A program made the translations under genes and the position numbers. From a virus, in IMG/VR virus record IMGVR_UViG_3300029319_000063, positions 1-55,568 of that record: 55,568 nt of DNA; one strand, given 5' to 3'. This document shows, piece after piece, positions 13,696-50,664 of the stretch; within the stretch, counting starts at the first letter, position 1; each line of letters starts with the position of its first letter. The notes beneath the pieces are model-generated. The model ran no database searches. It had not been told where the DNA came from and saw only the letters and a list, made by a program, of their open reading frames with translations.

Positions 13696-13739
13696 ATTTG
13701 TAACCTTTTTATTATTTTTATGTGACATATACATAGTAT

Positions 13740-29519: not shown

Positions 29520-32500
29520 TTATAAAGCCTTATCATCATCATTTACAATTCTTGGTAGTTTCATTTCAGTTTCTCTCCTTATTGGAGTATCTTTAGATTG
29601 TTTACTTAATTTGTAATCACCAATTAAAATTCCTTTATTACCATTACCACTCGTATCAATTACAACCCTTCCATCTGATTCACCCATATTTAATTCAAGT
29701 AAACATTTTCTGGTTACATGTGGTGGATGTACAGCGTCATCTATAAATATTGAACCAACAGAACTTTCTTCAGGATATTTAGCTACAGAACCATTCCAAT
29801 ACCAAAATTCATTATATTTATAAAAATCATTATCTTTTTTAGGATTAACAAAATTTTCATACGAACTTTCTATACCTAAAAGTTTTGGTATATCAAAAGA
29901 ACCATCTTTAAAATATCTAACTTGTTCTATAGCTGTTGACCCCACATAATCACCAATTTCTCTGTTCTCTAAAGCTTTTTCTAAATTAACTCTATCTATA
30001 ACATCATCTTCAGAAAATTGTCCACCATTTAAAATTTTATCAAGTGATTTAATATATGTACTATCTGAACTTATTCCACTAATGACAGGAGTTGTATCAC
30101 TAAATGGTAAGAATTTAAAATCAGGTCCACTTGTTTCTGCAAAATCCTCGATGTAAACATCATCTAATGTTAAATTAATTTTTATAGTTACAGGTTTTAT
30201 ACTTATTGGCATTTCAATACCAGCATCATTTTCAATCACAGATAGTACGATAGCTTTTATAACTTTTACACCAGGTTCATTATATTGATGTGATAAAAAG
30301 TTTGGTTTCATTACTTCCGATGTATCAAAAACATCCATTGGGATATATGTATTATTCAATTGTTGTTCTAGTTCTATATCAGATTCACTAGTAGGAAATA
30401 CTAATGTATCAAAATCATCATCCTTTGATGAATCAAAATTCCAATTAACAACAAACATTTTAAGTTTTTGCATATAATCTATCGTGTTAGTATTATCGAT
30501 TGATGTATTAATAAACTCATAAACTTGGTCTGATATTACAGAAGCTTCAACCGGATTAATATCAAATCCATATTCTCCAGGATATACACAAGAACCATCA
30601 TCTATCTCTGCTGTTGGTGAATAATTTATAGCTTCTGTATCTGTACATCCACTATAATTATAAGTACAATAATCTGCTGTTGTTTCACCTTCGGGTATAT
30701 ATGCATTACTATTATATTGATCTCCAAATATGTCTGTACAACCAGGATACCATATAATATAATCTACATCATTATAGTTGTCTAATTTTTGTTGAACATA
30801 TGGCTGCCAAGTAAATTGTGTATCCAGCCATTCAGGTCTAAGGTCATAATTATAGAGTCTGTTGTAAGTGTGAGTAATACTTACTCTTGGAAAATAATTT
30901 CTACCATATTCATCTTTTTCATATCTCCAATTTATACCACCAGGATTATTATTGTTAAAATACTCATTATCCGTTCCCTCAAACATAAAGTTTTGATAGT
31001 GTACATCTTGTTCAGGTGTTATAGTAAATTGAATTTCATCACCATCATTTAATCTTAATTGGTTAGTAAGACCATCACCATTATTCAAATCTAAATATAA
31101 AGGTTGTGTACCATTACCTAAATCTATATATATTTCAAACACAGGATCTCCTGTTGGCCAACTTTCATATAAATAACCATAATCACCGAGAAAATCATCT
31201 ATATAATCTTCCCAATTCCAATAAGCTGTTAGTTCAAATGTTATATCATCAGAATATAAACACCCGCCACTTTCATAACCTAAACTACAATCAGTTTCAG
31301 ATTTAAATTCATATTCAAAATGTTGATTTATTTTTTGTACAAAATTAACATTTGGTGTAGAACCATAAAAACAACACTCTGGACAATCTAAAGTAGCTTC
31401 AGGATTATAATTAGTTGCATTTGTATCCATACAACCATATACCCATTGACTGCTATCAATATCATAGTTGGAACAATCAACTTCACATACACAAGGTATT
31501 TGATGATCACCATAACAAGGTTCTTGAACAGGTTCACTTGGAGAAGCTCCAGAAGTACAAGAACATGAGTGACTTAGTCTAACTCCTCCTTGACACCAAC
31601 TAGTACAATATCCTGGTCCGTTACTACAACATTCAGGTGTATCTCTTGATGAAGACCTAACTGGTTGGCCATAATCTGCATATTGATATGTGTTATATGT
31701 ATTGTCTAAATTATGATTTAAGGCAGACATGGGTAATGGAATATTTGCGGCATTTGCATCAGTTAAAAGTTCAGCTCTCTCTACATACTTCTCAAAAACT
31801 TTATCGTAATAACTAACATAACTTATATTGTTTAAACCATCATTTTCAGCTATAAACATATTTAAGTTAACTATATTAGGAGCAGAAGCATAAGGTCTTT
31901 CAGGTTCTAAAAAATCATAATATTTTTGAATATAAATACCTTCTTCATAATTATCTGTTTCTCCTATAAATACATGAGGTATTGGTCTCCATGTAGTATA
32001 CATGTCATCAGGTAAAATTTGTTTTCCATATAAATTACTCACACCATATTCATCAAAGTTGAAGAACGTAGGTGGATATTCAATGTTATAACCAGAATAA
32101 ATTGGATCTGCATCTATTGTATATGTTTCAAGTGGTAAATCTTGTAATCTCTTTCCACCTAAGTTAAAAAAGAAATTATAATTATCAGCTTCCTCCGTTA
32201 AATCGGATACATCTGGAGCATATATTCTAACTCTTGTAAAGGCTGTACTTTTATTTTCTGTAAACCATGTTCCCTCCATATAATAGGGTGCAAATCTACC
32301 ACTACCATCAGTACTACTAACACTATAATTCCCACATTCATATGTTGAGTTGTCAGACCTTATATAAGAAGATGATGAATCCAAACCTGTATCACAAAAT
32401 CTTTTTGTCATTACTGTATCTATTGTACCATCTACTCCACTTCTGATTATACTTCTAATCTCAGCTGATGATATTTCTGAAATACCAAACCATGCACCTT

Positions 32501-33581
32501 CAACATCATCCCCACCACTTAAAGATGATGTTCCCTTAATATCTAAGTATTGTATTATTATAAGTTTCATATCTGGATTTCTCAAAAATTCAACCCACTC
32601 TGAAGAATTACCATCAATTGTTATCATGTTTTCTATATTAGAATCATTTAATACAGCTATGTTTTCATCACTCCCATTGTTAAATTCTGTTGGACCTTGA
32701 TCACTAGCAGTATTTCTATATGCCCAAATATTATTGGGAGAATCATCACCATTACCATCCCATAAAACCCAACCATCTAATGCAGCATAAGATCCACCAA
32801 TCTTACCATAAGTGTGATTATTACCACCCCAAGGACCATGTCCAAGTTGATTGGTATAACCCCCATCTTGACCTGGACAAGTATATTCACCCTGAAAACA
32901 AGAATTTGATTCACCACTCCAAGGACCTCTCCTCGCAAAAGGACTTTTATTTACTACGAATGCTGCTGTTGAAAAGAAATCATACATACCATCATATGTG
33001 GTAGAATCAACAACTTCTACCCACATTTGTTTATCATATTCATCCAAATAATATGGTCCACTTCCACGCATTGGACTATCCCACATAATAGAATGAAGTT
33101 CTATTCTTATTTCATTTTCTCCTGATGTCCATTGTAATTGAGATTCAAGATTAGAATTTGAAAATGGTTCTATTGACATATCCATAGTAGAATATAAATC
33201 ATCCACATCAGTTTCTGTTATTATTCCTGTATCGGTAGTAAATGAATCATAATTATTTGAATGATAATATTGTCCATAACTATTTGGTGTTGGTAAATCT
33301 TTATATATTCTAAATCTTAATCTACCACCAAAAGTGCCTGTATCTACAACATTTAAATCACATGGTGGCGGACACGCATTGTTAATCTCATAATACATTT
33401 CACATGTGGTTGGTGGATTATTTTCACACACACCATCTATTTCATTCCATTGACAATTTGCATAACCCAAAGCTTCAGACGCAGCAGTATATGCATTACA
33501 GAGAGCTGAATCTGTTATGTATCCACATAATGGTGTTCCATCTCCTGTACAAGAAAAACTATCTGGTGCATATTGTGACAT
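29520..33581 (-). CDS. Large Cys-rich/PKD-like tail protein, paralogue of the 3103-aa protein
   Basis: A 1353-residue protein. The N-terminus is Cys-rich (CTGDGTPLCGYITDSALC, CQWNEIDGVC). Residues 100-600 are beta-rich and unrecognised. Cys clusters at about 650-700 are followed by GCTD-type repeats GCMDTNATNYNPEATLDC (about 715) and GCTDTEAINYSPTAEIDDGSC (about 980), here with short variants between. PKD-like strands FVVNWNFDSS and HQYNEPGVKVIKAIVLSV lie near 1040-1110. The C-terminus shares several blocks with the 3103-residue protein: a SDSTYIKSLDKIL-type helix, IEQVRYFKDGSFDIPKLLGI, GDYKL and LPRIVNDDDKAL. Start ATG overlaps the upstream stop (TAATG) behind GGAAGAG. A virion surface or baseplate role is inferred from position. 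Confidence 0.6.
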   Translation of the reverse strand: MSQYAPDSFSCTGDGTPLCGYITDSALCNAYTAASEALGYANCQWNEIDGVCENNPPTTCEMYYEINNACPPPCDLNVVDTGTFGGRLRFRIYKDLPTPNSYGQYYHSNNYDSFTTDTGIITETDVDDLYSTMDMSIEPFSNSNLESQLQWTSGENEIRIELHSIMWDSPMRGSGPYYLDEYDKQMWVEVVDSTTYDGMYDFFSTAAFVVNKSPFARRGPWSGESNSCFQGEYTCPGQDGGYTNQLGHGPWGGNNHTYGKIGGSYAALDGWVLWDGNGDDSPNNIWAYRNTASDQGPTEFNNGSDENIAVLNDSNIENMITIDGNSSEWVEFLRNPDMKLIIIQYLDIKGTSSLSGGDDVEGAWFGISEISSAEIRSIIRSGVDGTIDTVMTKRFCDTGLDSSSSYIRSDNSTYECGNYSVSSTDGSGRFAPYYMEGTWFTENKSTAFTRVRIYAPDVSDLTEEADNYNFFFNLGGKRLQDLPLETYTIDADPIYSGYNIEYPPTFFNFDEYGVSNLYGKQILPDDMYTTWRPIPHVFIGETDNYEEGIYIQKYYDFLEPERPYASAPNIVNLNMFIAENDGLNNISYVSYYDKVFEKYVERAELLTDANAANIPLPMSALNHNLDNTYNTYQYADYGQPVRSSSRDTPECCSNGPGYCTSWCQGGVRLSHSCSCTSGASPSEPVQEPCYGDHQIPCVCEVDCSNYDIDSSQWVYGCMDTNATNYNPEATLDCPECCFYGSTPNVNFVQKINQHFEYEFKSETDCSLGYESGGCLYSDDITFELTAYWNWEDYIDDFLGDYGYLYESWPTGDPVFEIYIDLGNGTQPLYLDLNNGDGLTNQLRLNDGDEIQFTITPEQDVHYQNFMFEGTDNEYFNNNNPGGINWRYEKDEYGRNYFPRVSITHTYNRLYNYDLRPEWLDTQFTWQPYVQQKLDNYNDVDYIIWYPGCTDIFGDQYNSNAYIPEGETTADYCTYNYSGCTDTEAINYSPTAEIDDGSCVYPGEYGFDINPVEASVISDQVYEFINTSIDNTNTIDYMQKLKMFVVNWNFDSSKDDDFDTLVFPTSESDIELEQQLNNTYIPMDVFDTSEVMKPNFLSHQYNEPGVKVIKAIVLSVIENDAGIEMPISIKPVTIKINLTLDDVYIEDFAETSGPDFKFLPFSDTTPVISGISSDSTYIKSLDKILNGGQFSEDDVIDRVNLEKALENREIGDYVGSTAIEQVRYFKDGSFDIPKLLGIESSYENFVNPKKDNDFYKYNEFWYWNGSVAKYPEESSVGSIFIDDAVHPPHVTRKCLLELNMGESDGRVVIDTSGNGNKGILIGDYKLSKQSKDTPIRRETEMKLPRIVNDDDKAL

Positions 33582-36500
33582 TAGTACGCTCTTCCTTTAT
33601 CTTTTCTAATTTGTGGTAAGTTTTCAAAATCACCTTTACTTGGTATCCTTGTATCTTCATCAAATAAAACTTTATAATCACCAAAAACATAATTATATAA
33701 TTCTACACCTGAATTGTTCGGTAATCTATTTTCATCTACATCTATTTCACTAAAGTTTATATCAACAATAGCTTGTGTATAAATATTAAGTAAGTTAGAA
33801 GAATAATCATCATTTAATGCCGGACTACTTTCATCATACTCATACCATAATCTATCAGGACTTCCAAATGGAATGTTATTTTCTATTAGTGCATCTATTC
33901 CAAACAAATCATCATCACCTGGTGAATCACCCTCTTCATTTACCTCACCTTGTATAAGTAAACATTCACAATCAAAAACTCCGTTAGATACAAAAATACA
34001 TTGTGCATCATAACCATAATTACAATTGTAATCATCAACTAATCCTGCAGAATTACATTCACAAGTTCCTGGATCTTCACCAATCGGATTTCCTTCAACA
34101 TCCCATTTTTGAGTTCCTACTTCAACTTCAATTTCTGATTTTTGAAGATTTTCTTCAGAAGAAAATTTTCCAAATAAATCAAATTTAGGTAAAACAGGAT
34201 AGTAAGGTTTGACATTTTCCACTTTAATAATTTCACCAAAACCCGAATCTGAATCGGGAGGATTTATAAATTCAATATCATCTAATTGACGATGTACATT
34301 TGTTGTTCTTGATAACCACTCTTGATTAGATTCAATATCAATTTTTTTACTATGTTTTAATACTGTTGGTAGTATTTTGTTATTTTCTAACTCATCTCGT
34401 TGTAAATCTACCGAAACATACATCTCAAATAAATAATATCTACCTTGTTCCAAAACATTCAAACTTTCACCATCACTACTCCAACTTCCATCATAATAAG
34501 TAGAATTTCTTTTTTTACCATTTTTAATCCAAGTAATTCTTTCTACATTATTATCCCCATCAAACATAGTGTTAAACTCTTCACTACCAATCATCATATT
34601 TCCTAAATTCCAATATACTATATTATCTGATAATGGTGTATCATGTGTAGAAGTTATTTGTAAAGGTGAATTATTGTTTGAGTATTTATTAAAAGAAATA
34701 TCATCATATAATAATTCACAATCGGATTCACCATCTAACCCAATACCACCTATACTTTCATCAGGTAAACATATTGAAAAAGTTTGATTTGAATTTAATA
34801 TGGTATCTATCGGTTTGATAGTTAATTCATTTTCACCACCACGGCGTAAAATATTATTTAGTTCTATAGAATAATCTATAAATCCATCTCTCCAAGTTAT
34901 ATCATAGTTTGATGGTATTATATTTTTCCAATACCTTTTAGATCCAGGATTATCTGGATGTTGTGATAAAGCAATAGAATCATCCAATAATATTTCACCC
35001 TGAGGTTTTAAAAAATTGTGATAAAAATCATATGTTTTTTCATATGTATTTTTAAATTCATCAGAATCAAAATTTGGAATAACAGATTCGTTACCATAAT
35101 GATTATTAACATAAGCTATAAATTCTGACATAGCTTTATACATTCTTAAATCTCTTGGTTCATCTAATTCAAATGTTCTATGATTTCTACTCATCTCAAA
35201 TTGAAATGCATCTACATTTCCAATAAATCCTGCAGGGTCATTAGAACCACCACCATCATCTCCACCGTCATCAACAAAACTATCAGAAACTGTAGCATCA
35301 AGAGTTACAAATCTTGTAACCGTATACTGAGCACCTGCTGTAAAATCTCTTCCTATAACTATAGGTTTTTTAACTCCAGGTTCAGCACAATAGTAATTTC
35401 CATCTAAATATAGTTCCCAAGCATCAGTACAATCATCATATATACCTAAATCACATTCATTTAAATATCCAGCTAAATTATATTGATTATCTTGCCTATC
35501 TGGACAAGAATGACTATCTTGTTCCAAATATTCTCCTGCAAAATATTCATAAGCTATATTTAATCCGTCAGCATATTCATATAATCCTGAATTTCTTCTA
35601 TCGTGATATCCTTCACCATCACCAATATCATTCTGATTTAAAATTTCTATCAACTTTAATAATAAAGAATCTCCATTAGGATTTTGTGGTGAAGTTAATC
35701 CTTTTCCTAAATCGGTTACCATTGATGGTGCATAAGTATCCATATCACTAAAAGTATCCCATTGAGAATCTAAACTACCATCCCAAAATCTATTTTTTAT
35801 AGGTGATGCTGGACCAGGAAAATCAAAATTAAAATCATGTTCACTTAGTGGATATAAATTAAATCCTTCAGTATTATTAGAATACCAACCAAAATCAGTA
35901 TATCCTTTTACATAACTACCATTTGGATCTCTATTTTTATTTGGGTAAGCCACTCCGATATCTACAGCAAATGGTCTATAGTCACCCGCTCCATGAAAAT
36001 CAATAACCAATTTTATTTCAGGATGTTCTAATAGATACTCTTTTAGTTTTTTCTTAAATGGATGAAGTTGTCCTTCCATACCAGAAAAGGCTGGTGTAGC
36101 TGTATTTCCTGTTCTACCAAAATAATCATAACCAATGTAGTGATAATAATTTGGGTCATCCTGCATGTGTGTAGCTATTAACACATGTGAATTTGTCATT
36201 TTTCCTACTTGATATGCCATGGCTCCTGTGTAATAATCTGGAGCATGATCCCAAGCTGGATATTGACCATCTGGATCATAAGATAATGCAGTAGGTCTCA
36301 ATGTTCTAGGACTATGTGGAGCTGTAATTAACACCGCTCCTGAACCCTCTATTAATTGAAAAGATTTATCTGGAGCTATATTAACAAAACCTAACATTTT
36401 ATCCATCGTATAATCACCACGATTAAAAAATCTAACCTGATTTATATCTGCGTTACCAAAATAATTATCTTTTGCAAGTTCCCCATAACCTTTATTATAC

Positions 36501-39500
36501 GAACCACTAACTATAGTAACAGGATTAGGTGCAGGACCTGGAAAAGGATGATCAACAGAACCTGTTTCTTGTAACACACCATACAAATTTACTGAACCCG
36601 ATAATACTGGTTGATTAAAAATATTTAAAGTTGCTGAACTTTCAACTGAATATTCATTCATTTTTGCATATGCATATTCTGTATCAAGTTTATCTTGAAT
36701 ATATTGAAAATCTAAATCTAATTTACCACCTGTTTCTAAATAACCCAACTCTCTTTGAATAGTTCTATAATATATACTTTTATCCGAAACTCCTCCAATA
36801 GTAATATTATTTTCATCAAAGGGTAAGAATACTTCATTATCTTCATTTGATGAAATGTTTATTCTATATTTAAATTTCATGAAGTTAGACACACCACAAT
36901 AGTTTTCATCATTTATTATAAATTGTCCACCAGCACTATCACAATATTCTTGATCTACTCCAAATATATTAGGTGTTGGATTGTCAAATACATTATACCA
37001 TGGAGGAACAGATGTTTCATCTGTTTCATCAACTTGTGATATATAACATCTAGTTCGACAAGCTTCATCTTTATAAACATTGAACATGTAACCTGACACT
37101 TCATATATTCCTGGTCTGGTATATGTATGTTTTATTATTTTTCCAAATTCAAGTTTTTCAGGATTATATTTAAAATCGAAATCTTGTTCTTCTCTCGTTG
37201 TTTCATCACCCCAATCAACTATACCAATATAATAATCATACTTATCAGAATCTAAATCTTTTCTTGATCTATTATTAAATAAAAATTGGGCGTCTATTGT
37301 AGTTCCTGGAGCTACACCTTCTCTTGGTGTAAATAGAAAATAAAATTCACTTGGAGCTGATGTATTTTTATAATACTCAGGAAATGTTTCTTTACTATAA
37401 TATTCGTGAGCTGTGGCTTTTTTTTCTCCAGATTTAACATCTTGATATTGAGCTCTTTTAGTTGTGGAGTTAACATCAGGTGTAAAATAACCAGCACTGA
37501 AATCATCAATACCTGACATACATGCAGTATGATCTGTACAATCTTGTGCGTCCACACCATCACCTCCTGGAGCTTCACAATTACAACCACTACCATTATT
37601 TATTCCACCCAAACAAGTTCCAGCAGTTCCCTCTCCCACATGCTCTATGTTTACACAATAACCATCTAAATGATTTTTGTAAAAAGGTATATCAAGGTTT
37701 TTTTGTAAAGAACTATATGTAGAACCTATAAGCTTCCATTCTGATATATCATCTTGAACAAAATGTTGATTTTCTTCATCGAAGAAAAAACAACCTAAAG
37801 GTAATCTATTAAATAAATTATTTTCTTTCCACCAATATTCTCTATTAAGATAATTAGTTGTACCATCAAGGTAAGGAATATTTATAGCTTGTTCTGGAAT
37901 ATAAATTTGATCTGTTGGAGTATCTCGTAATTCATTTTTTCTTAAAGTTTGTTTTATTTTAAAAATACCATCTATATTTATATCTTTTTGAAGCCTCACT
38001 TTTGTACCTAAACTACCAGTAACTGCCACATCAAAAAAATAAGTACCATCAGTATCTAATGTTTTTCCATACCCACAATTTATAAATGTTTCGAAAGTTT
38101 TCATACCCGCCATATTTTGTGTATCTGGATTTGTATTGGGGTTATCAATAAACCAAGTACATGGTTGTTCTCCAGATGCACCATCATCAATTACCTCACC
38201 TGTACTAACATCTTGTGTAACTCTTTGATTTACTGTAAAACCAGGTTCAGGACCTGTTTGTTCGTCTTTTATTTTTCTATCTATTCTATATTGATATGTA
38301 TAAACTACCTCATTAGAATTTTGAAACTTCCAACCACCAAAATTAGGGTTATAATCATCACCATTAAAATTTGTATTTTGACCGAAATTATCATTACCAA
38401 CAGGTTTTATAAGATAATAATCCAATCCTAATCCAGTAGAACTCTGAGGTACGATTGAAATATCACCATAAACACAATTTAAATTATAATTTTGTGTAGC
38501 TGTAGGGTCATAGTTAATAGCTGTAGGATCTGTACATCCCTCACAATCATTATCACCACCACATTGGCCACAAAAATCTAATATTGTAGAACAACTACTA
38601 TCATTTTGATTATCAACCTCACATGAACAATCACCATTACAATCAAGCCATAAACAAACTCCATTGTCAATAGTATAATCAGGACTATAATTACATGCAG
38701 TTGAATCCATACATCCAACACATTCATTTGGTGGAGATTCTCCATTTCCAGGATTATAACATACTTCGCATAAATCTAAAACTGAACTACCACCACAAAC
38801 ACCGGCACAATCTACTATAGTTAAGCCTTCACAAACGCCTTGACAATCCATAGCCCAATTAGGTGGACAAACACCATTAAAAATACTACTTTCGTTTCCA
38901 GTTTGATATAAAAGTAAAGCTTCAGTATAACCCAATTCATCAACCAAATCAAAACAACCTGTTACTAAAGTTGATGTATTTCCACCAAAACAATTTCCAC
39001 AATCATCTATATCTGCACCATAACCTGGTTCACCTTCACAAGTTCCTGCACAATCTATTGGTGTAGCTGTAAGTACACAATTACCACAATCATCTATAAA
39101 TGAAATTCCACCACAAACTCCAGCACAATCTACAATACATGGATTGTCACCACTCCCTATGTTTTGTCCGTTATCATCACATGTACTAGGACAGAAAAAA
39201 GTATCATCATCATCCAATTGATTTAAAACCCAACCATCAGGAACAAATTCAAAACAATATGTTCTAGAAACATCTGCATTTCCAAGACCATCACCATCTG
39301 AATCTTCATAATAAGTTAATACTTGACTTTCTTCACAACAATTTTCGTATCCATCTGCATCTTCTACATGATTACCAAAACACTCTCCAGCACAATCTAA
39401 ATCACTATCAGCCTCATGTCCTGAATTACCACCAGAACAAATACCACATGAATCAAAGAATGCAGTACCTCCAACATCACCATCATGATTTGGAGTTCCT

Positions 39501-42500
39501 ACAACACAATCTCCATTACAATCCATATCACTATTGGCTATGTGGTCTGTTGTTCCACCTGAACAAACTCCACAATCATCAATAAATGCATTTCCATTTT
39601 CGACTCCAGCACAATCTTCTGGATAAGTACAACAACCGTAATTTGAACCTAAAGCGGTACCAATACAATCAAAATAGTGTCTAGCTTCATAGTCAGAAGC
39701 TTGAGGGTCTCTACAACCTTTTGCTGTTAATCCTTCTAAAAGAATAGTATCACCCTGATGAAACATAATAACACCAGGTCCCCAAACATCATCAGTACCT
39801 TTACATTTGTTTGTAAAGTTACAACCATGATTTACAACTCTACCTAAATCAAAGTTATTGTTAGATGTATACCAATGTATCGTTTCAAAACATTCATTAC
39901 CTATACCATCACCATTAGTATCTGCTCTTTGAGTTCCTGGTGGTTGATTGAATGTGGATGCACCAGGACAAAAACCTGAATCAGGATCAACTCCATCACC
40001 ACAATCTTTTGATGTATTTAAAATTGAAAAATAATTAAAATTATCGGATTCTCCTCCGTATGGTAAATAATGACATAAATCACAATCATCTAATCCATAA
40101 TCATTTCCTGTATAATAATCACCTGTGGTAGCGTTGTTATCACAATAATCATTGTTGTCACCAGAATTTAATACATGACCACCAGGTAAATCTTCCTCAC
40201 AACCAGTCCAAGGTGCATCAGCGTTACCTATACCATCACCATCTATATCTGCATAATAAGTTACAGGTCCAGGTAAGTTACACCCACAACCTAAATCTGT
40301 ACCTTCACCGAAACAATTTCCACTACAATCCGTTTGAGGGCCTCCACCCTCTTGGATATTAGTACCACCACAAATTAAACATGAATCAATACCAATTCCA
40401 TAATTATCATCGTTAGGGCAATTACCAGCACAATCTTGATTGAGAGCTGTATATGCATAATATGGTATTCCACTTTCAGTAAATAATTGAGTTTGTGTTA
40501 CAGGATAATTAGAATGACTAACGTCACCATCATTTAAACTTGAATATAAAACAATGTGTCCAGTATCACCTCCTACACAACTTCCACATTCATCTATTTG
40601 TGCACAACCAGTTATATTATCATCATCACATGTATCAGGAGTACAATCGTTATTACAATCTTGGCCATATACACCACCATATCCATTAGTGTTATCAATA
40701 ATACCAGTAGTACCACCAATACAAACATTACACTCATTTAGATACGCTTCTCCGTTACATGTATCATTACAATCACATCCCAAAAGTCCATTTAAACATT
40801 CAAATGTACCTGTAGCACATCCAAAATTTACAGTGGCTGAAGAATCATATGCACAATTAGTGTCATCCATACAACCATAAACATCATTTCCTGGAATACC
40901 AGGTCCTATATATTCAACATAACCTTCAGGACATTCATTACATGTTGTTGGAACTTCTTGTAAATAATTTGAAACATTGGAATCATCACACAAACCTGTA
41001 TTGTTATAATCTTGACAACATATTAATGGATATGTACATGAACCATCATCTATATTTGCATCAGAATCATAATTACACGCTTCACTATCTGTACAACCAA
41101 ATATTGGTGCAATAGTTTCTGCACATGGTGTACCACGTATGTATAAACTTGATTGCCAACACTCTATTGTTGAATTATCATCAAGACATTCATCCGAAAA
41201 TATTAATTCTAATGTAGAACCTCCACCAGCTATTGAACCATAAGCATAAGGTTGAGATGCATCCCAAGACGATACATCATCCATTATTGGGTTTGTATTA
41301 AAAGTATCAATAAGAGTTCCATGTATATCTCTTATTGAAATAGATTCTCCATTATTTGATAAGTTTCCATTATACAAGTATCTATTTTCACATGAATAAG
41401 ATCCTCCACCACCATTATCAAATCCTTCTTGTCGCATAAATAATAAAAATTCACCAGGTTGAATTATAACCCTTGACATTCCACCAAGTTGAAATTGGTC
41501 GTCTATTTCAATTGGTCTAGCACCAGATGATAATATGTCAATAAAACCTGTTGTATCAATTGGATAATTAGATGAATTATACATCTCAATAAATTCATGT
41601 GTAGCTTCTAATCCAGTAATTGGGTCTATATGAAATTCTGTAAATAAAAATGTTCCACCCAAAAATGTTCTAAATGTAGAACTATTCCATGGAAGAGAAT
41701 TAGGTAATCCTGGAGAGCCACCTTCTATACCAGATCTATACCAATTAGAACCACAATTATTATCCAATTCATCATTGATTAAAACAATAGAAGAAACATT
41801 AGATAAAACATTAGATGGCCAACTATCCAAACAACTATTTATACCATCATCTAATGTATCTTCAGTTCCAGCAAAGTATCTTACTCTTTCAACTAAGTTA
41901 CCTCGATGATTATTGTTTGCTGAAGAACCTGCTAATGTATCTTGAACACTTGGGTTAGCATCTCTTAAAACAATATTTTCTGATGTGTTTGATAATTCTC
42001 TACTCGCACCTGTACCACTCTGCCATTCATAAAGATTTGCAACATCATCATTACTTCCATCGTAAGCTATTAGATGTTCAAATGTTCTATAATCATCTCC
42101 CTCTGGACATGCACTAGCATCACACGATTCATTTGTTGTCCAAATTTCAGTATCAGCTGAAATACAATAACATTTTCCATTATAAGCTTCGGCGTTGTTT
42201 GCAAAAACCATTCTACCATAAGGTTCTAATGATGAATTAATTGGTAATCCACCTCTCCAATTATCACCACATCTATTGTATTCTGTAGCGTTATTTGTAA
42301 ACATAGCAATGGACAAACCTTTTGTTGAAATAGTTTCGTTACTTACATTTTGTATTTCAAAAAACTCCCAAGTAGCTTCGTCATTATTTTGATCTTGTGC
42401 AGTAATTTGTTTAACACCATCTATAGTGTAATGTATTTCTGAAATTTTTATTTTATCTGTAAAATCAAAATATTCACAACTTCCATCATTGTTAGTTACA

Positions 42501-42892
42501 GTAGAATCATAATTTTCTGCGTATACATCTGGACAACCATCCACTTCTAAAATATCAAAAAATATTTGTGTTAGGTTTGTATCAACATGATTTGGAACAT
42601 CAGGAACTTCCCAAGTTACTGGTTCACCACCTTCTTCGGTAACACCATCTAATAATGTTCCTGCTGGAGTCTCAAGTTTAAAACTTAATGTAGTTCCACC
42701 AGGAAAGCCTACTACAGTAACACTACCACCAAAATCAATTTGAGGGGTATCTCCAATTGGTTCAAAATTTCCTGTTAGGATTCCTGTTAAACCTGTATCT
42801 TCACCATTGGAATAAGCTCTCCAAATATATTCTCCAGAAATATCAAGATTGTTATCTAATGTTGCTGTAGCTATTACGACGGTTACATTCAT
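33581..42892 (-). CDS. Giant mosaic virion protein: lamin-tail, Cys-rich array, PKD-like and amidohydrolase-like domains
   Basis: A 3103-residue protein. Lamin-tail-like domains lie near residues 140-260 (KISEIHYTIDG...WEFFEIQNVS) and 405-560 (LFTEFHIDPITG...HEFIEMYNSS). Residues about 600-1475 are a Cys-rich array: GCTDSEACNYDSDA and related repeats, at least eight DxCGxCxGG-type units (DDCGVCSGG, DSCGICSGG), DCAGVCGG-type units, and two metal-binding motifs (YYADIDGDGIG, YYEDSDGDGLG). A PKD-like fold (DWGDE...HTYTRPGIYEVSG) is near 1880-1940. The module INQVRFFNRGDYTMDKMLGF near 2150 precedes a hydrolase-like domain at about 2180-2600 (APHSPRTLRP, DDPNYYHY, LVIDFHGAG, QFEMSR). The C-terminus matches the 1353-residue paralogue. 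ATG 42892 follows GGGGAA; a candidate late promoter lies 26 bases upstream. It is probably a tail adhesin carrying an enzyme. Confidence 0.65.
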   Translation of the reverse strand: MNVTVVIATATLDNNLDISGEYIWRAYSNGEDTGLTGILTGNFEPIGDTPQIDFGGSVTVVGFPGGTTLSFKLETPAGTLLDGVTEEGGEPVTWEVPDVPNHVDTNLTQIFFDILEVDGCPDVYAENYDSTVTNNDGSCEYFDFTDKIKISEIHYTIDGVKQITAQDQNNDEATWEFFEIQNVSNETISTKGLSIAMFTNNATEYNRCGDNWRGGLPINSSLEPYGRMVFANNAEAYNGKCYCISADTEIWTTNESCDASACPEGDDYRTFEHLIAYDGSNDDVANLYEWQSGTGASRELSNTSENIVLRDANPSVQDTLAGSSANNNHRGNLVERVRYFAGTEDTLDDGINSCLDSWPSNVLSNVSSIVLINDELDNNCGSNWYRSGIEGGSPGLPNSLPWNSSTFRTFLGGTFLFTEFHIDPITGLEATHEFIEMYNSSNYPIDTTGFIDILSSGARPIEIDDQFQLGGMSRVIIQPGEFLLFMRQEGFDNGGGGSYSCENRYLYNGNLSNNGESISIRDIHGTLIDTFNTNPIMDDVSSWDASQPYAYGSIAGGGSTLELIFSDECLDDNSTIECWQSSLYIRGTPCAETIAPIFGCTDSEACNYDSDANIDDGSCTYPLICCQDYNNTGLCDDSNVSNYLQEVPTTCNECPEGYVEYIGPGIPGNDVYGCMDDTNCAYDSSATVNFGCATGTFECLNGLLGCDCNDTCNGEAYLNECNVCIGGTTGIIDNTNGYGGVYGQDCNNDCTPDTCDDDNITGCAQIDECGSCVGGDTGHIVLYSSLNDGDVSHSNYPVTQTQLFTESGIPYYAYTALNQDCAGNCPNDDNYGIGIDSCLICGGTNIQEGGGPQTDCSGNCFGEGTDLGCGCNLPGPVTYYADIDGDGIGNADAPWTGCEEDLPGGHVLNSGDNNDYCDNNATTGDYYTGNDYGLDDCDLCHYLPYGGESDNFNYFSILNTSKDCGDGVDPDSGFCPGASTFNQPPGTQRADTNGDGIGNECFETIHWYTSNNNFDLGRVVNHGCNFTNKCKGTDDVWGPGVIMFHQGDTILLEGLTAKGCRDPQASDYEARHYFDCIGTALGSNYGCCTYPEDCAGVENGNAFIDDCGVCSGGTTDHIANSDMDCNGDCVVGTPNHDGDVGGTAFFDSCGICSGGNSGHEADSDLDCAGECFGNHVEDADGYENCCEESQVLTYYEDSDGDGLGNADVSRTYCFEFVPDGWVLNQLDDDDTFFCPSTCDDNGQNIGSGDNPCIVDCAGVCGGISFIDDCGNCVLTATPIDCAGTCEGEPGYGADIDDCGNCFGGNTSTLVTGCFDLVDELGYTEALLLYQTGNESSIFNGVCPPNWAMDCQGVCEGLTIVDCAGVCGGSSVLDLCEVCYNPGNGESPPNECVGCMDSTACNYSPDYTIDNGVCLWLDCNGDCSCEVDNQNDSSCSTILDFCGQCGGDNDCEGCTDPTAINYDPTATQNYNLNCVYGDISIVPQSSTGLGLDYYLIKPVGNDNFGQNTNFNGDDYNPNFGGWKFQNSNEVVYTYQYRIDRKIKDEQTGPEPGFTVNQRVTQDVSTGEVIDDGASGEQPCTWFIDNPNTNPDTQNMAGMKTFETFINCGYGKTLDTDGTYFFDVAVTGSLGTKVRLQKDINIDGIFKIKQTLRKNELRDTPTDQIYIPEQAINIPYLDGTTNYLNREYWWKENNLFNRLPLGCFFFDEENQHFVQDDISEWKLIGSTYSSLQKNLDIPFYKNHLDGYCVNIEHVGEGTAGTCLGGINNGSGCNCEAPGGDGVDAQDCTDHTACMSGIDDFSAGYFTPDVNSTTKRAQYQDVKSGEKKATAHEYYSKETFPEYYKNTSAPSEFYFLFTPREGVAPGTTIDAQFLFNNRSRKDLDSDKYDYYIGIVDWGDETTREEQDFDFKYNPEKLEFGKIIKHTYTRPGIYEVSGYMFNVYKDEACRTRCYISQVDETDETSVPPWYNVFDNPTPNIFGVDQEYCDSAGGQFIINDENYCGVSNFMKFKYRINISSNEDNEVFLPFDENNITIGGVSDKSIYYRTIQRELGYLETGGKLDLDFQYIQDKLDTEYAYAKMNEYSVESSATLNIFNQPVLSGSVNLYGVLQETGSVDHPFPGPAPNPVTIVSGSYNKGYGELAKDNYFGNADINQVRFFNRGDYTMDKMLGFVNIAPDKSFQLIEGSGAVLITAPHSPRTLRPTALSYDPDGQYPAWDHAPDYYTGAMAYQVGKMTNSHVLIATHMQDDPNYYHYIGYDYFGRTGNTATPAFSGMEGQLHPFKKKLKEYLLEHPEIKLVIDFHGAGDYRPFAVDIGVAYPNKNRDPNGSYVKGYTDFGWYSNNTEGFNLYPLSEHDFNFDFPGPASPIKNRFWDGSLDSQWDTFSDMDTYAPSMVTDLGKGLTSPQNPNGDSLLLKLIEILNQNDIGDGEGYHDRRNSGLYEYADGLNIAYEYFAGEYLEQDSHSCPDRQDNQYNLAGYLNECDLGIYDDCTDAWELYLDGNYYCAEPGVKKPIVIGRDFTAGAQYTVTRFVTLDATVSDSFVDDGGDDGGGSNDPAGFIGNVDAFQFEMSRNHRTFELDEPRDLRMYKAMSEFIAYVNNHYGNESVIPNFDSDEFKNTYEKTYDFYHNFLKPQGEILLDDSIALSQHPDNPGSKRYWKNIIPSNYDITWRDGFIDYSIELNNILRRGGENELTIKPIDTILNSNQTFSICLPDESIGGIGLDGESDCELLYDDISFNKYSNNNSPLQITSTHDTPLSDNIVYWNLGNMMIGSEEFNTMFDGDNNVERITWIKNGKKRNSTYYDGSWSSDGESLNVLEQGRYYLFEMYVSVDLQRDELENNKILPTVLKHSKKIDIESNQEWLSRTTNVHRQLDDIEFINPPDSDSGFGEIIKVENVKPYYPVLPKFDLFGKFSSEENLQKSEIEVEVGTQKWDVEGNPIGEDPGTCECNSAGLVDDYNCNYGYDAQCIFVSNGVFDCECLLIQGEVNEEGDSPGDDDLFGIDALIENNIPFGSPDRLWYEYDESSPALNDDYSSNLLNIYTQAIVDINFSEIDVDENRLPNNSGVELYNYVFGDYKVLFDEDTRIPSKGDFENLPQIRKDKGRAY
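35080..36350 (-). other. Putative N-formylglutamate-amidohydrolase-like catalytic domain inside the 3103-aa protein
   Basis: Within residues about 2180-2600 the order of motifs is VLITAPHSPRTLRP, DYYTGAMAYQVGK, THMQDDPNYYHY, KLVIDFHGAGDYRPFAVDIG and finally VDAFQFEMSRNHRT. The PH start, DxHG middle and QxExxR end resemble the N-formylglutamate amidohydrolase superfamily, metal-dependent amide hydrolases of the peptidase M14-like fold. A Cys-rich insert (CPDRQDNQYNLAGYLNEC to YYCAEPGV) sits before the last motif. The substrate is unknown; peptide or gamma-glutamyl bonds at the cell surface are one possibility. Confidence 0.5.
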
Positions 42893-42946: not shown

Positions 42947-44824
42947 TTAACTATTGTTTGTAAATTTGAAATAACCTGATACACTACATCCCTCTGGTCC
43001 AGCAGTGTTAGTTGCGGGTGTTGTTATAGAGTAATAAATACCTGCTTTCAAATCACTTCCTAACCAACCACCTATAAAAGATAAATAAGTTGGAGCATTT
43101 ATGTATTGATTATCAGGACTAAACATTGTAATTGTTTGAACCGTAGTTCCATCACACCAAGTTAAAGGTATTGTACCTTCTGGATCTTCAAACCAAGAAT
43201 TGTCTAAAATACTTACAGGATATTCTATGTCTGGTGGTAATAACATAGCGACACCACTCCATGTATTTGGTGATATGTAAATAGTTGGCCAATCAGGTTC
43301 TTCCACTAAATTATCATCTGCAGTTGATGGTAAACATCTTGTTGCTCCATCATCTACCACTGGATCTAAATAACTTGTACATGTTACACTACCATCATCT
43401 AAATTATAATCAGCTTGAATGTTATTATCTGTGAGAGTATAAGGTAATCCTAAATATGTAGTTAGTAATGTATAATCAGTAAGATTTTCATTTACTAAAT
43501 CAGTCAAATTTGTTATGGTTGATTCTAAACCTGGTATACTATCTACTTGTCCTTGTAATTCTAAAACTTGAGCTTCTAAATCCGATACCAAAGAATTAGC
43601 ATTATCTAAATTAGATTGTATTATAGTTATAAAGTCAGATAATTCACTTATTGCACTCTCATTTGAAGCAATAGTATCATTTAAATCTGCAATTTGAGTA
43701 TTTAAATCCGTAATTTCAGTCTGAAATGTTGTGAAATAACCACCAATTGTTAAAGAATATAATGAGTAATCAACATTTGATAAATCATCATCAGGAAAAT
43801 ATAAATTTATTTGAGCTATAATATCTGCAAAATATGATTCATAATCACTTATAGTATTTTGTAATGATGTATTTTGACTTTCTAAATCACCAATTAAAAA
43901 TTGTAATGTTTGTATTTCAGAAACATAGTAATTTATTGTTTCATTTAATTCTACATTAACATTATCAATATATATTTGTAAATTATCAGAAAGTTGAGGA
44001 TTTACTTCTATAGTATCTTCAAACTCAGTAGATAATATATTTGCTATTTGTCGTAATTCATTGAAATACCATTCAAGTTCTGTAGAGGTTTCTGGAGAAG
44101 ATGGTGGTATGTAAATATCAAATATATCTGGATAAGGACTATTTCCTAATATTATTTGAACCGAAGCAACAATATCAGATACATTGAGTATCCCATCATT
44201 GTTCATATCTCCTGGTAAAATATCTAAACTAATACCATCAAGATTATAACAACAACAATTATCATTGAGCCAATCACCATTGTAATTGTTTGTAGGTAGT
44301 GTTTCATCTAGCCAAGCTTGACATGTAGTTGGATTAGTAGGACATGACCAGTTTCCACTATAAGTACCATCATCAAAATTTAAAGCTAATCGGTCTGAAC
44401 ATGTAAGAGTAGGAAGAGGAATATCATCATTATCATCATCATCAGGTTCAGTTTGTCGTAAACATGTAAAATGTGCACATATGAAATTTTCAGGACAATG
44501 TCTATCTCGAACACATTCTCTACAGGTATTACCACTACAATATATTTCAGGTTCTCCACCCACCGATATTGCACCCATACAATCACGATTTGTTCCATCA
44601 GCATTGTTTTGATTATCAAAACATTCGAAAGTAGGCATAACGGGATCATCATCTATTGGATCAAGATCTGGAGTACTATCTATTGGGTCATCATCATCAA
44701 AATTTAATGGTGTATTATTTGAAGGAGGTTTTAAAAATATATCTGATGGTAATTTAAATTCATCCTTTAATAATTTTAAAACATCTTCTAATGCTTGTTT
44801 TTCTTTTTTATTATGTCCTGGCAT
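42947..44824 (-). CDS. Coiled-coil structural protein with dockerin repeat and Cys-rich N-terminus
   Basis: A 625-residue protein with four parts. Residues 1-45 are charged, beginning MPGHNKKEKQALEDVLKLL. Residues about 60-195 are Cys-rich (CFDNQNNADGTNRDC, CSGNTCRECVRDRHC, CSDRLALNFDDGTYSGNWSC). A single dockerin-type repeat GDMNNDGILNVSDIVASVQ lies at about 203-221. Residues about 255-440 form a long coiled coil with heptads such as LNTQIADLNDTIASNESAIS. A C-terminal beta domain (WSGVAMLLPPDIEYPVSIL...) ends the protein. The coiled coil suggests a trimeric fibre or whisker-like rod displaying the C-terminal domain. The ribosome binding site is weak (GTGAGTGA), so coupling to the upstream gene may matter. 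Precise role is unknown. Confidence 0.58.
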   Translation of the reverse strand: MPGHNKKEKQALEDVLKLLKDEFKLPSDIFLKPPSNNTPLNFDDDDPIDSTPDLDPIDDDPVMPTFECFDNQNNADGTNRDCMGAISVGGEPEIYCSGNTCRECVRDRHCPENFICAHFTCLRQTEPDDDDNDDIPLPTLTCSDRLALNFDDGTYSGNWSCPTNPTTCQAWLDETLPTNNYNGDWLNDNCCCYNLDGISLDILPGDMNNDGILNVSDIVASVQIILGNSPYPDIFDIYIPPSSPETSTELEWYFNELRQIANILSTEFEDTIEVNPQLSDNLQIYIDNVNVELNETINYYVSEIQTLQFLIGDLESQNTSLQNTISDYESYFADIIAQINLYFPDDDLSNVDYSLYSLTIGGYFTTFQTEITDLNTQIADLNDTIASNESAISELSDFITIIQSNLDNANSLVSDLEAQVLELQGQVDSIPGLESTITNLTDLVNENLTDYTLLTTYLGLPYTLTDNNIQADYNLDDGSVTCTSYLDPVVDDGATRCLPSTADDNLVEEPDWPTIYISPNTWSGVAMLLPPDIEYPVSILDNSWFEDPEGTIPLTWCDGTTVQTITMFSPDNQYINAPTYLSFIGGWLGSDLKAGIYYSITTPATNTAGPEGCSVSGYFKFTNNS

Positions 44825-44838: not shown

Positions 44839-46857
44839 TTAAACTTTAAAACCTTTAGCTCTAAGTAAATCACTTTTAGAAATAATTTCAACTTTACATT
44901 TAGCTCCTTCAAATGAATTGTGAGTATATCTACCTACATTTTTATAACAATGTGGATAATTAGGGTCATCTTCTAACACATCTGGACAAGGGTCTGCTTC
45001 AGTACCAACTAATAAATCAGAATTAGAATTAATGTCAGCCTCAGTAGCTTGTATTCCCTCTTCACCATCAGCACCAAAATCTACATGCCATTTCCAATAT
45101 TCATCAAAGTAAGCTTGACTTGTTAATGCATCAGGTCCACATTCATTACCTGTAGCACCACAAGATTGTAATTTTCTATTTTCTTGAATATTTGGATTCC
45201 AATTTGCAACTATGTAATACCATTCGTTAATATCACTTGGTACATGTAAATGATTTAAAACTTTTTGAGAGTAGTTATCACCAAAAGGTTTTATTGAAAA
45301 ATGATTAATCAGTTTAGAGTAACATCTACCAGTACAAGATGTTTCAGTTCCACTTACAGAATAATCGGCTGCTACTCCAGGGACAGGTAAATTCATGGTT
45401 GTGGCTCGATTAGTAAATCTCGATGATATATGTCCATTTCTACCTCTTGATTTTCCAACATGAGAATCCCAAAAAGAACCGTATTGATCTCTAACTATCA
45501 ATCTTATAAATCTTTCATCATCTGTTTTTTTAAAAAAGGGTTGTGCTGATGTGAAATGATTTATATCTGATGGGAATCCATTTGCTACTGTAACCTCATT
45601 ATTTACATATTGTTCCCAAGTTCCATATGAACCATCAGGTTTTACCAAATCATTTTTGTTTAAAGTAAATGTTTGTAGAGCAAAAGATGGTTTTATTTGT
45701 CCTGGTAAACATTCACCTGGATCACCACCATTACATATTGATTCATCATAATCACCATCCTCTGTATAACCTTGAAATGGATTACCTAAATTAAATAATG
45801 TTCCTGTACTTGTTTTATTTAGGAACTTAACCCACATAGCTATCGTAAACCCTTGTTCTAACCATACAGGATTATATTGGTCTGAACCAATAAATGGTAA
45901 GTTGTCTGATTCTTCTTGTCTTATTATTATCCCTTGATTTAAACCATTAATTCTTAAATAACCTTCTGATTGAGGTTCATATTCTGGTCTTTCATCTTCA
46001 GGTTGTATTTCAACAACTTTGTCTATATCAGTTAAATATTCATTTAAATCATCTCTTAAAGATTGTAATGTTTGCCCTTCATTAATAGTATTTTCCGCGT
46101 GTCTATCTAATCTAACAATATTACCTTGATTTGGCTCTGTCACTTGAATATCATTTACATTATGGTGTATATCTTGATTTGCAGATACATTCGTAGCCCA
46201 TGTATCAGGTATATCATCTGAATCCACATCTAAACTGAAGTTTGGTATTACACCTTTTAAAGCTTCGTATTCCGTAAAAAATTTATTTATTCTAGCTTGT
46301 CGTGTAATATTAACAGGTATTAACTCAAAAATATTAGTATCTAATATTTGTTTAGCCTTATCGATATCAATAACATAATTTTGATTTGAAAAAGATATAA
46401 AGTTAGCTAAAAAAGTAAACAACTCTTCGGTAAGATTTATAAAAAATGTAAATTCACCCAAAGCACAATTTTGCATTTCTATTTCAACGAAAGGAACTGA
46501 ATCTGGATTTAAACTTGCATCGTAATTTTCAAAATCAGGATCATCAGGACCATTATAAGTAACAAAATAAGAAAAATCACCCCAATCCAAATATTGATTT
46601 GTTTCGGTATCAAATTGACAATCCGCGGCCGAGTTTAAAACAGTGTCAAGTGATTCTGGTGTTAATTGTTGTTGGTAATCTTGTTGATATACAACTATAT
46701 TTTCTACGTCCTCTACATTATCAGTTTGTACAATATTACCATTCGAAAATATTCTTCTAAAATTATTTACATTGAAGTTTTCAAAGTCATCTGAGTTTTC
46801 CATCATTAAATTAATTATATAATCTAATAAACTCTCTATTAGTTGTATTTTCGTCAT
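44839..46857 (-). CDS. LamG-like baseplate/tail structural protein
   Basis: A 672-residue protein. The first 300 residues look baseplate-associated and are rich in acidic residues. A concanavalin/LamG-like domain spans about 310-560, with the paired strands EQGFTIAMWVKFLNKTSTGTLF and NEWYYIVANWNPN. Cys-containing insertions such as CNGGDPGECLPGQ, SCTGRCYSK and SCGATGNEC interrupt the domain. This is the same style of Cys-rich loop seen in the neighbouring giant proteins. The ATG lies 3 bases after the upstream stop, with GAGGTAA as ribosome site. LamG domains commonly bind glycans; binding by this protein is inferred. It lies in the baseplate block after gp6-like and DNRLRE-like proteins. Confidence 0.62.
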   Translation of the reverse strand: MTKIQLIESLLDYIINLMMENSDDFENFNVNNFRRIFSNGNIVQTDNVEDVENIVVYQQDYQQQLTPESLDTVLNSAADCQFDTETNQYLDWGDFSYFVTYNGPDDPDFENYDASLNPDSVPFVEIEMQNCALGEFTFFINLTEELFTFLANFISFSNQNYVIDIDKAKQILDTNIFELIPVNITRQARINKFFTEYEALKGVIPNFSLDVDSDDIPDTWATNVSANQDIHHNVNDIQVTEPNQGNIVRLDRHAENTINEGQTLQSLRDDLNEYLTDIDKVVEIQPEDERPEYEPQSEGYLRINGLNQGIIIRQEESDNLPFIGSDQYNPVWLEQGFTIAMWVKFLNKTSTGTLFNLGNPFQGYTEDGDYDESICNGGDPGECLPGQIKPSFALQTFTLNKNDLVKPDGSYGTWEQYVNNEVTVANGFPSDINHFTSAQPFFKKTDDERFIRLIVRDQYGSFWDSHVGKSRGRNGHISSRFTNRATTMNLPVPGVAADYSVSGTETSCTGRCYSKLINHFSIKPFGDNYSQKVLNHLHVPSDINEWYYIVANWNPNIQENRKLQSCGATGNECGPDALTSQAYFDEYWKWHVDFGADGEEGIQATEADINSNSDLLVGTEADPCPDVLEDDPNYPHCYKNVGRYTHNSFEGAKCKVEIISKSDLLRAKGFKV

Positions 46858-46860: not shown

Positions 46861-47967
46861 TTACCTCTTTATCTTAAATTCAAAATCATTATCGATTATT
46901 TCTTCTTGACCATCATCATATTTTAATTTGTATAAAATTTTATAAACTCTATCAGGTTCAAATGTATTTAACCATTGAATAAAATAATTTGATTTAGCGT
47001 CACAACTTAAAAATGTGTAATCACTAAATGGAACTATTGTTTCATCAGAAGCTACATCTTTTATAGAGTACGAACCTGATTTTTCTGGTATATAAGAACC
47101 TGTAGCTGTTTGATATGATGTCGAGAAAGTTTTCTTTACAAATTTTTCTCTAGCCTTTAATCTAAATTTAACTTTATCAGATTCTTTATAAAATTCTTTT
47201 AAACCAATCATATTAATATCATTATTAACTAAACCACTCGATGTAATTTGATTTAATGAACCTGTATTTGAACCACTACATGCTATATGGTCATCCCATT
47301 GTACCTCTAACTTTGGTTGAAAAATAGTATTTGTATTTCTCGAAAAGAATTTTAATTTTCCAAATGTTGATGTATCTGTTTCTTGTGTTGTTAAAAATTT
47401 TATTAACATTCCATAGTTTGGTTCTTGTCCTTGCAACCACATATTTACCATATCACTAATATCAACATTTATATCTGCGGATTGTCCAACATCAAATGTT
47501 TGTATAGAAGCACTAAAAAGATGTACTGATCCTCCAGGAGTTTCCCAAGGTGCGCTAGAACCATTTGTTAATTTATTTTTATTTACCCAACTACATCCAT
47601 CAGTATTTTTAGGGTCATCACCGAATTTACCTGTTCCCTCTGTCCAAGACTGTGATATTGGTTGAAAACTTAAAGTATAATTTTTAGTTAACTTATCAGT
47701 ATTACCTTCAGCTTCAAACATTTTTAAAAAATATTTTGGATTTACAATACTACCATCAGAAACAGATTGTGATATAAATGTAAAATCATCACCACTAAAT
47801 TGTACTAATGCTCTTGTTGGATAATCAAATTCAAAATTATGAAATTCTTTTTTAACTTCTAATATTTCATCTTGACCAAAATTTTGATCTGTTTCTGGTA
47901 TACCGGTAATCTTATTAGAACCTGATGATATCCAAGTATCTTGTGATGGGAAAATAAAATAATGCAT
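46861..47967 (-). CDS. DNRLRE-like (CBM96-like) virion protein
   Basis: A 368-residue protein. Residues 1-235 follow the jelly-roll pattern of DNRLRE/CBM96 domains: FPSQDTWISSGSN at the start, NFGQDEILEVKKE, RALVQFSG, LSFQPISQSWTEGTGKFGDD in the middle, INVDISDMVNMWLQGQEPNYG and GMLIKFLTTQE near the end. The remaining 130 residues are beta-rich and unrecognised, ending DNDFEFKIKR. These domains occur in large secreted adhesins, and some bind polysaccharide. Here the gene sits directly after the gp6-like wedge gene, its start overlapping that stop (TAATG) behind GAGGAG. It probably attaches to the baseplate, perhaps as an adapter; this is inferred. Confidence 0.62.
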   Translation of the reverse strand: MHYFIFPSQDTWISSGSNKITGIPETDQNFGQDEILEVKKEFHNFEFDYPTRALVQFSGDDFTFISQSVSDGSIVNPKYFLKMFEAEGNTDKLTKNYTLSFQPISQSWTEGTGKFGDDPKNTDGCSWVNKNKLTNGSSAPWETPGGSVHLFSASIQTFDVGQSADINVDISDMVNMWLQGQEPNYGMLIKFLTTQETDTSTFGKLKFFSRNTNTIFQPKLEVQWDDHIACSGSNTGSLNQITSSGLVNNDINMIGLKEFYKESDKVKFRLKAREKFVKKTFSTSYQTATGSYIPEKSGSYSIKDVASDETIVPFSDYTFLSCDAKSNYFIQWLNTFEPDRVYKILYKLKYDDGQEEIIDNDFEFKIKR

Positions 47968-50226: not shown

Positions 50227-50664
50227 TTATACATCAACAATTACAGAATCCAATGTATTTGGATCTCTAGTCACATGAAAATCTACTTTTATACTTATAG
50301 TATTTTTTCCCAAAGAATCCATCTGACTAATATTAACATCAATATTATTGATAGTGACAAAAGGTAATAGATTTTGAAAGGTTGTAGTTAAATCAGCCTT
50401 TATTTCATCTACTGTACTATTGTCAAGTTGTTGAAATAAGTAAGTTCTTAACCCTAAACCAATTGTTGGTTGCATTAATCTTTCACCTCTTTCAGTTGAT
50501 AAGAGTAGTTTTATATTCTGTTTTACTGCATCCAATGTGGTTCGTGTTGATTGAAACCATCCATCTATACCATCGGATTTAGTAAAGGGTAATGATAAAC
50601 CAATAAATTGTTCTTCATCATTATCTTGTATATATGGTTTTCTACTTTTATCTAGTATAGCCAT
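50227..50664 (-). CDS. Baseplate wedge protein, gp25-like
   Basis: A 145-residue GPW/gp25-family protein. The family signature is clear: AVKQNIKLLLSTERGERLM followed by QPTIGLGLRTYLFQQ, then INNIDVNIS and TISIKVDFHV strands. gp25 proteins link sheath initiation to the inner baseplate and are conserved across contractile systems. The N-terminal 30 residues (MAILDKSRKPYIQDNDEEQF) are an extension common in phage versions. The start overlaps the upstream stop (TAATG), with AAGGAA as ribosome site. Its position immediately before gp6-like supports the assignment. Confidence 0.87.
   Translation of the reverse strand: MAILDKSRKPYIQDNDEEQFIGLSLPFTKSDGIDGWFQSTRTTLDAVKQNIKLLLSTERGERLMQPTIGLGLRTYLFQQLDNSTVDEIKADLTTTFQNLLPFVTINNIDVNISQMDSLGKNTISIKVDFHVTRDPNTLDSVIVDV

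Follow-up and report, generated by a model that had tools for sequence, protein, structure and literature searches.

The window that we analysed is a whole virus record of 55,568 bases, and it carries on its minus strand the gene for a giant protein, P0001, whose features are collected in Table 1. The preliminary description of this DNA had reported one 3103-residue frame, and we found a single intact ORF that spans exactly 33581-42892 and is open across all 3103 codons (3103 aa). An end-to-end homologue of 3104 aa with 57% identity, P0002, is encoded on contig L003 (IMGVR_UViG_3300020438_006412), and on a further contig, L109 (IMGVR_UViG_3300012920_000854), a P0001-type protein is cut off by the contig end after its first 343 residues. 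When P0001 and P0002 were compared over their whole length, the dN was 0.36 and the dS was 0.93 (NG86; dS is near saturation). The full-length alignment and these substitution values together mark P0001 as a genuine gene that is kept by purifying selection, rather than an artefact of joining.

Table 1. Features of the P0001 locus (positions in the window; residue numbers refer to P0001)
Feature	Coordinates	Strand	Evidence
T4 gp25-like baseplate wedge protein	50227..50664	-	phrog_261, E 5.1e-18
T4 gp6-like baseplate wedge protein	47967..50210	-	phrog_219, E 1.1e-25
368-aa gene, CBM96/DNRLRE domain	46861..47967	-	adjoins gp6 in nearly all related phages
672-aa protein	44839..46857	-	conserved with P0001-type genes in L003, L021 and L109
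625-aa coiled-coil protein	42947..44824	-	just upstream of P0001
Giant protein P0001	33581..42892	-	intact ORF; full-length homologue P0002
Lamin-tail domain 1, residues 146-313	41954..42457	-	PF00932, 20.5 bits, E 1.5e-5
Lamin-tail domain 2, residues 418-532	41297..41641	-	PF00932, E 4.1e-8 for that stretch
Cys-rich array, residues 598-1475	38468..41101	-	motif counts; Cys conservation in P0002
DIDGDGIG motif, residues 882-889	40226..40249	-	motif count, strict DxDGDGxG
DTNGDGIG motif, residues 991-998	39899..39922	-	motif count, variant
DSDGDGLG motif, residues 1197-1204	39281..39304	-	motif count, strict DxDGDGxG
Scaffold block A, residues 1801-2172	36377..37492	-	homology to P0003 and to the neighbouring 1353-aa gene
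Putative FGase/PghP-like zinc hydrolase domain, residues about 2173-2600	35093..36376	-	profile links; fold of bridge protein
His2193 (APH motif), candidate metal ligand	36314..36316	-	invariant in phage and bacterial members
Asp2219 (D-x-x-T-G), candidate acidic metal ligand	36236..36238	-	D/E in phage and bacterial members
His2300 (D-x-H-G), candidate metal ligand	35993..35995	-	D-x-H invariant in the phage/bacterial set and FGases
Cys-containing insertion in the hydrolase, residues about 2421-2515	35348..35632	-	absent from bacterial relatives
Glu2566 (F-Q-x-E), candidate catalytic base	35195..35197	-	third collinear block, phage-only HMM; Glu invariant in alignments A4 and A9
Scaffold block B and C-terminus, residues about 2631-3103	33584..35002	-	HPDNPGSKRYWKNIIP, YYPVLPKF, GDYK tail
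1353-aa neighbouring gene	29520..33581	-	block A shared, no enzyme insert

P0001 belongs to a gene cluster in which it is preceded by the gp25-like and gp6-like baseplate wedge genes and then the CBM96, 672-aa and 625-aa genes. The P0001-type genes have the same neighbours in L003, in L109 and in a related phage, L021 (IMGVR_UViG_3300029448_000163), and the 1866-aa gene located two places downstream of P0001 has homologues in 41 related phage loci. As judged by gp6, the nearest cultured relatives are Flavobacterium phage immuto and Microcystis phage Mel-JY01, both of which have homologues of the gp6-like protein; no homologue of P0001 was present in the stretch examined of either phage. The conserved synteny with the gp25 and gp6 wedge genes lends partial support to the preliminary description, where P0001 was called a tail polypeptide. 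From this gene order P0001 is probably part of the phage tail. A Bacteroidota host is plausible.

Several other genes of the window were also noted. The coiled-coil protein just upstream of P0001 has, at about residues 200-233, a dockerin-like stretch, GDMNNDGILNVSDIVASV (in L109, GDVNGDGVSNVQDIVAMV), which is unreported by Pfam and resembles part of a 1190-aa gene. Two overlapping large genes on the minus strand (13778-17020 and 17010-20582) have dockerin type I matches over the Pfam cut-off (E 3e-8 and 7e-10), and the latter also bears Cys modules of the P0001 type, GC.D..A.NY...DDGSC. No match to cohesin was observed within the window. Between the primase gene and the dockerin gene is a gene for the UV-endonuclease UvdE (12781-13734, minus; Pfam E 2e-65). 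A small protein encoded at 11230-11805 (minus) exceeds the Pfam cut-off for DruA of the Druantia defence system (E 1.2e-8) and also matches a PHROG named for Mom-like DNA modification, an odd pairing for a phage. The adjacent minus-strand genes 21085-22026 and 22043-23110, possibly exchangeable tail fibres, have a common C-terminal module, of which several repeats occur in phage Mel-JY01 (L005 28990-37936).

P0001 had been proposed to begin with lamin-tail-like domains, and the PF00932 profile bears this out. Against a curated cut-off of 34.3 bits, it scored 36.1 bits (E 9.4e-9) on the whole protein and 44.2 bits (E 2.8e-11) on residues 1-801 alone, with the matches in two stretches of residues 1-600. 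The same profile gave 49 bits (E 9e-13) in P0002 and 30.8 bits in a third phage, just under the cut-off. The region of the first domain has a counterpart in both L003 and L109. Among the viral contigs searched, only three carry the lamin-tail-bearing form.

The lamin-tail domains are followed by the long Cys-rich array that had been noted in this protein, built from GC(T/M)D..A.NY, DC.G.C and C..C.G units. At 87 aligned positions of the array, P0001 or P0002 has a Cys, and at 86 of them both do, against an overall identity of 60% in this region; Glu, Gln and Ile in the array are conserved at merely 23-29%. Such near-complete retention of Cys is the pattern expected of a disulfide-held stalk, and gives indirect support to the earlier suggestion of disulfide stabilisation. 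The DxDGDGxG motifs are present as two strict copies (882 and 1197) and one variant, DTNGDGIG (991), and may possibly bind calcium. No Pfam family was found that covers residues 598-1475. The profiles of MopE (PF11617), which the preliminary description had named for an HMM search, and of bacterial TSP3 (PF18884) had no match in P0001 at E ≤ 10, and we rejected both as names for it. A PKD-like fold had also been claimed. The PKD profile PF00801 remained below its cut-off of 23.5 bits (14.4 bits at best; E 0.18 on whole P0001 and 0.039 on the segment), while the PKD-like signature WGD...H.Y...GIY recurs in a homologue.

For residues 2180-2600, an amidohydrolase-like domain had been predicted. 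This domain had no direct match in Pfam, NCBIfam, PHROG or PDB sequences. A direct search with PF05013 (N-formylglutamate amidohydrolase, FGase) left it short of the cut-off, with no match at E ≤ 10, as was also the case for PF05908 (poly-gamma-glutamate hydrolase), and hhalign of the phage domain profile directly with FGase proper gave a probability of 0.9%. The connection is provided by a bacterial family. When the two phage sequences were searched against 84,980 bacterial and archaeal genomes, they picked out L008, a protein of 215 aa from an uncultured Clostridia bacterium. L008 forms one family with its relatives L010-L014 and L104, characterised by the motifs APH, (D/E)xxTG, DxN, DxHG and QxExN. 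The phage profile aligned with this family at 98.3% probability in hhalign (E 2.6e-14). An HMM built from the bacterial sequences alone detected the phage homologue (E 1.1e-10). In the other direction, the phage-only HMM matched bacterial members (E 1e-7) over three collinear blocks, in which APH, DxHG and QxE are found. On its other side, the family reaches FGase proper at 96.4% (E 1.1e-9), and its member L104 is over the PF05013 cut-off. Scanning the viral contigs with the bacterial family gave no relative, and a PDB profile search with it gave weak, unrelated matches only. By transitive profile homology, the phage domain is assigned to the FGase/PghP-like zinc hydrolase superfamily. The prediction was therefore right at the superfamily level, by way of the bridging bacterial family, and four catalytic-type residues are present.

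In two genomes of the bacterial family (L011 178-2187 and L012 136-2190, minus), the protein with the FGase-like domain has an additional fused region of 430 aa, and a gene of the FolC (folylpolyglutamate synthase) subfamily, over the TIGR01499 cut-off in both, lies directly beside it (2195-3556 and 2198-3550, respectively). As the FolC class adds gamma-linked glutamate, this neighbour is a weak hint to the substrate; gamma-glutamyl chemistry would fit.

His2193, Asp2219, His2300 and Glu2566 appear, by sequence motif only, to make up a complete signature of a His/acid/His metal site with a catalytic Glu. Asp2219 corresponds by its motif to an invariant Asp of FGases; of the four assignments, its role as acidic ligand is held with the least certainty. 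The position of the Q-x-E block at residue 2566 was set by the phage-only HMM; the MAFFT placement of the bacterial block against the phage sequence was wrong, because of the phage insertion, and was discarded. This insertion is about 95 residues long and contains four conserved Cys. The presence of such a large insertion, as well as of Tyr2250 where the bacterial relatives invariably have a further Asp (DxNxD), could mean that the FGase-like domain is a dead enzyme that serves the adhesin as a binding module. The phage domain keeps, however, all four metal and catalytic positions together with Arg2199, Asp2246 and Asn2248. Moreover, the enzyme core is 78% identical between P0001 and P0002 and is the slowest-evolving part of P0001 (dN 0.17 versus 0.36 overall). 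Loss of activity is, in our estimate, quite unlikely.

With a two-sequence input, AF2 on the phage domain itself gave a pLDDT of 30. The model of the bridge protein L008 (pLDDT 68, pTM 0.73) has a carboxypeptidase-like alpha/beta fold. Its closest folds are PghL (5onj, Z 14.6), the PM1 hydrolase (21dc, Z 14.0) and PghP (3a9l, Z 13.9), followed by Atu2144 (2odf, Z 13.2) and FGase (2q7s, Z 12.2), with carboxypeptidases and amidase_3 further away near Z 11-12. The zinc ligands of PghL are His41, Glu46 and His102, and its Glu165 is the counterpart of the catalytic Glu270 of carboxypeptidase A (PMC6506827). According to this model, the nearest folds of the bridge protein are the gamma-PGA hydrolases, ahead of FGase proper, and this result goes beyond the preliminary description.

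The neighbours of the L008 model also include Csd4 (4wcn, Z 12.1) and amidase_3 (4m6h, Z 11.9; 7rag, Z 11.6). Amidase_3 and Csd4 belong to the same fold superfamily as the FGase/PghP-type hydrolases. The domain could thus be a peptidoglycan amidase or peptidase, a cell-wall enzyme of the virion that acts after receptor binding and lets the tail tube through, and the closeness of the P0001 gene to the baseplate genes would agree with such a role. The gamma-PGA hydrolases, though, score about 2 Z units higher, the sequence links lead to FGase and none to amidase_3, and the enzyme sits inside a large adhesin-like protein with surface-type modules. We consider a peptidoglycan enzyme unlikely.

The hydrolase is inserted between two blocks that recur in other proteins of these phages. 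Block A comprises the PKD-like WGD...H.Y.RPGIY, GGVS..SIYY and, at its end, DINQVRFF...KMLGF, and the hydrolase starts a few residues after it. In the related phage L021, the corresponding position of the cluster is taken by the gene for P0003, which is at least 2400 aa long and contains block A (about residues 1803-2158 of P0001; blastp E 3.6e-17). An HMM of block A built without P0003 also found it there (i-E 5.6e-17 and 4.5e-7). HPxNPGSxRYWKNIIP of block B (2645-2665) is likewise conserved in P0003 (E 2.3e-5; i-E 4.2e-7), and there is an extra YYPVLPKF match that is weak alone. Both proteins have the two blocks in the same order, whereas the part between the blocks is the hydrolase in P0001 and a different Cys-rich stretch in P0003. 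The N-terminus of P0003 is unlike that of P0001 and is PA14-like, weakly (E 0.04).

The adjoining 1353-aa gene repeats the end of block A (FLPF...GISSDS; IEQVRYFKDGSFDIPKLLG), with a weaker match than that of P0003, and has by eye a GDYK-type C-terminus (weak HMM match), with about 115 residues and no enzyme in between. Among the phage loci compared, the GDYK tail was seen in none besides those of the P0001 type and the 1353-aa gene. In cultured phage and plasmid records, no match to the lamin-tail/Cys part, the scaffold or the hydrolase was obtained with the low-complexity filter on, and just two of the three lamin-tail-bearing contigs have the enzyme insert. Two states of the site and the neighbouring gene are few cases, but they support the inference that the tail scaffold can take up varying cargo at one site. 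The scaffold with an exchangeable insert and the related scaffold in the adjoining 1353-aa gene are new relative to the preliminary description.

The scaffold also bears on whether P0001 belongs to the virion. Like PghP of phage PhiNIT1, P0001 could be a non-virion protein that leaves the cell at lysis and clears polymer around neighbouring cells. PghP is among the closest phage fold relatives and is reportedly not a structural virion protein (PMC6966330). It is, however, a free enzyme of about 200 aa. P0001 is encoded in the baseplate gene cluster, and its scaffold is common to the adjacent gene and to the P0003 protein at the same place of another phage. Release at lysis therefore seems very unlikely to us.

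The gene-cluster, scaffold and active-site evidence favours a tail adhesin-enzyme over these alternatives. We put at roughly 60% the probability that P0001 is a modular, baseplate-attached tail adhesin of a T4-type myovirus, perhaps with a Bacteroidota host, that has an embedded zinc amide hydrolase; in this we infer the virion location, the zinc, the catalysis, the substrate and the host. Since the scaffold, the surface modules and the signature of a zinc hydrolase akin to enzymes that degrade capsules occur in one probable tail protein, this phage may bring along an enzyme of its own for digesting surface material. P0001 would stand on the baseplate as a long appendage, in which the scaffold (the PKD-like block, the DINQVRFF strand, the RYWKNIIP block and the GDYK tail) would bear exchangeable parts, and the N-terminal side would consist of the lamin-tail domains and a rigid, disulfide-held, possibly Ca-binding Cys stalk. 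Upon contact, the lamin-tail and Cys/DGDG modules may bind or span a surface layer or polymer. His2193, Asp2219 and His2300 would hold Zn, and Glu2566 would activate water or attack directly. The enzyme may then cut a surface component that has amide links (for example a gamma-peptide capsule, a matrix peptide or peptidoglycan), and the cleavage would open a path to the receptor. For the more specific proposal that a dedicated site takes either a Cys-rich module or an enzyme, and that a virion-borne PghP/FGase-type zinc amide hydrolase acts as a tail peptide-polymer depolymerase, the odds appear to us a little on the unfavourable side. The sequence gives good support to an adhesin-like protein composed of cellular-type modules and an enzyme. 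The preliminary description overall has been confirmed in part in its observations and supported in part in its interpretation.

To our knowledge, the phage tail enzymes that open the host surface are mostly polysaccharide-cutting. If our reading is true, an amide hydrolase at an exchangeable tail site would extend the range of phage-borne enzymes by one chemical class, would point to peptide-type surface barriers on hosts and would mean that adsorption includes the breakdown of a peptide capsule or matrix. It would also offer a sequence rule for finding further cargo in uncultured phages, namely to look between DINQVRFF and HPxNPGSxRYWKNIIP.

Modular phage adhesins of host-type domains, tail depolymerases and free phage gamma-PGA hydrolases are already known. 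In the literature searched, we came across no phage protein with a lamin-tail domain and no FGase/PghP-type enzyme within a tail protein. Among the known systems, PghP (phage PhiNIT1), PghL (Bacillus subtilis) and the hydrolase of phage PM1, enzymes of a kind that occurs in phages, provide the best fold matches of the bridge relative (Z 13.9-14.6), and their His/Glu/His zinc site with a catalytic Glu (PMC6506827) is in kind like His2193/Asp2219/His2300/Glu2566. They differ in being free proteins of about 200 aa, whereas the P0001 domain is embedded in 3103 aa within a tail cluster and has the ∼95-residue Cys-containing insertion. The PF05013 FGase family (2q7s, 2odf) has the PH, D-x-x-T, D-x-N, D-x-H and Q-x-E motifs in common with the P0001 hydrolase and the bridge set, but its profile does not recognise the phage domain, which has no direct alignment with FGase proper.

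Phages infecting Bacteroidota possess large modular BACON/PKD/Ig-like adhesins that combine host-type surface modules (PMC6949934, PMC13370021). P0001 is like these adhesins in its host-type modules, the PKD type among them, and is unlike them in having lamin-tail domains, a long Cys array and an embedded hydrolase, with no BACON match.

Tailspike depolymerases usually have beta-helical lyase or hydrolase domains. As tail-borne enzymes that open a surface layer, the depolymerase tailspikes (PMC6966330) are the counterpart of what we propose for P0001. They cleave polysaccharides (PMC6966330), whereas the domain in P0001 is of the amide-hydrolase type and may have the carboxypeptidase-like fold of its bacterial bridge relative.
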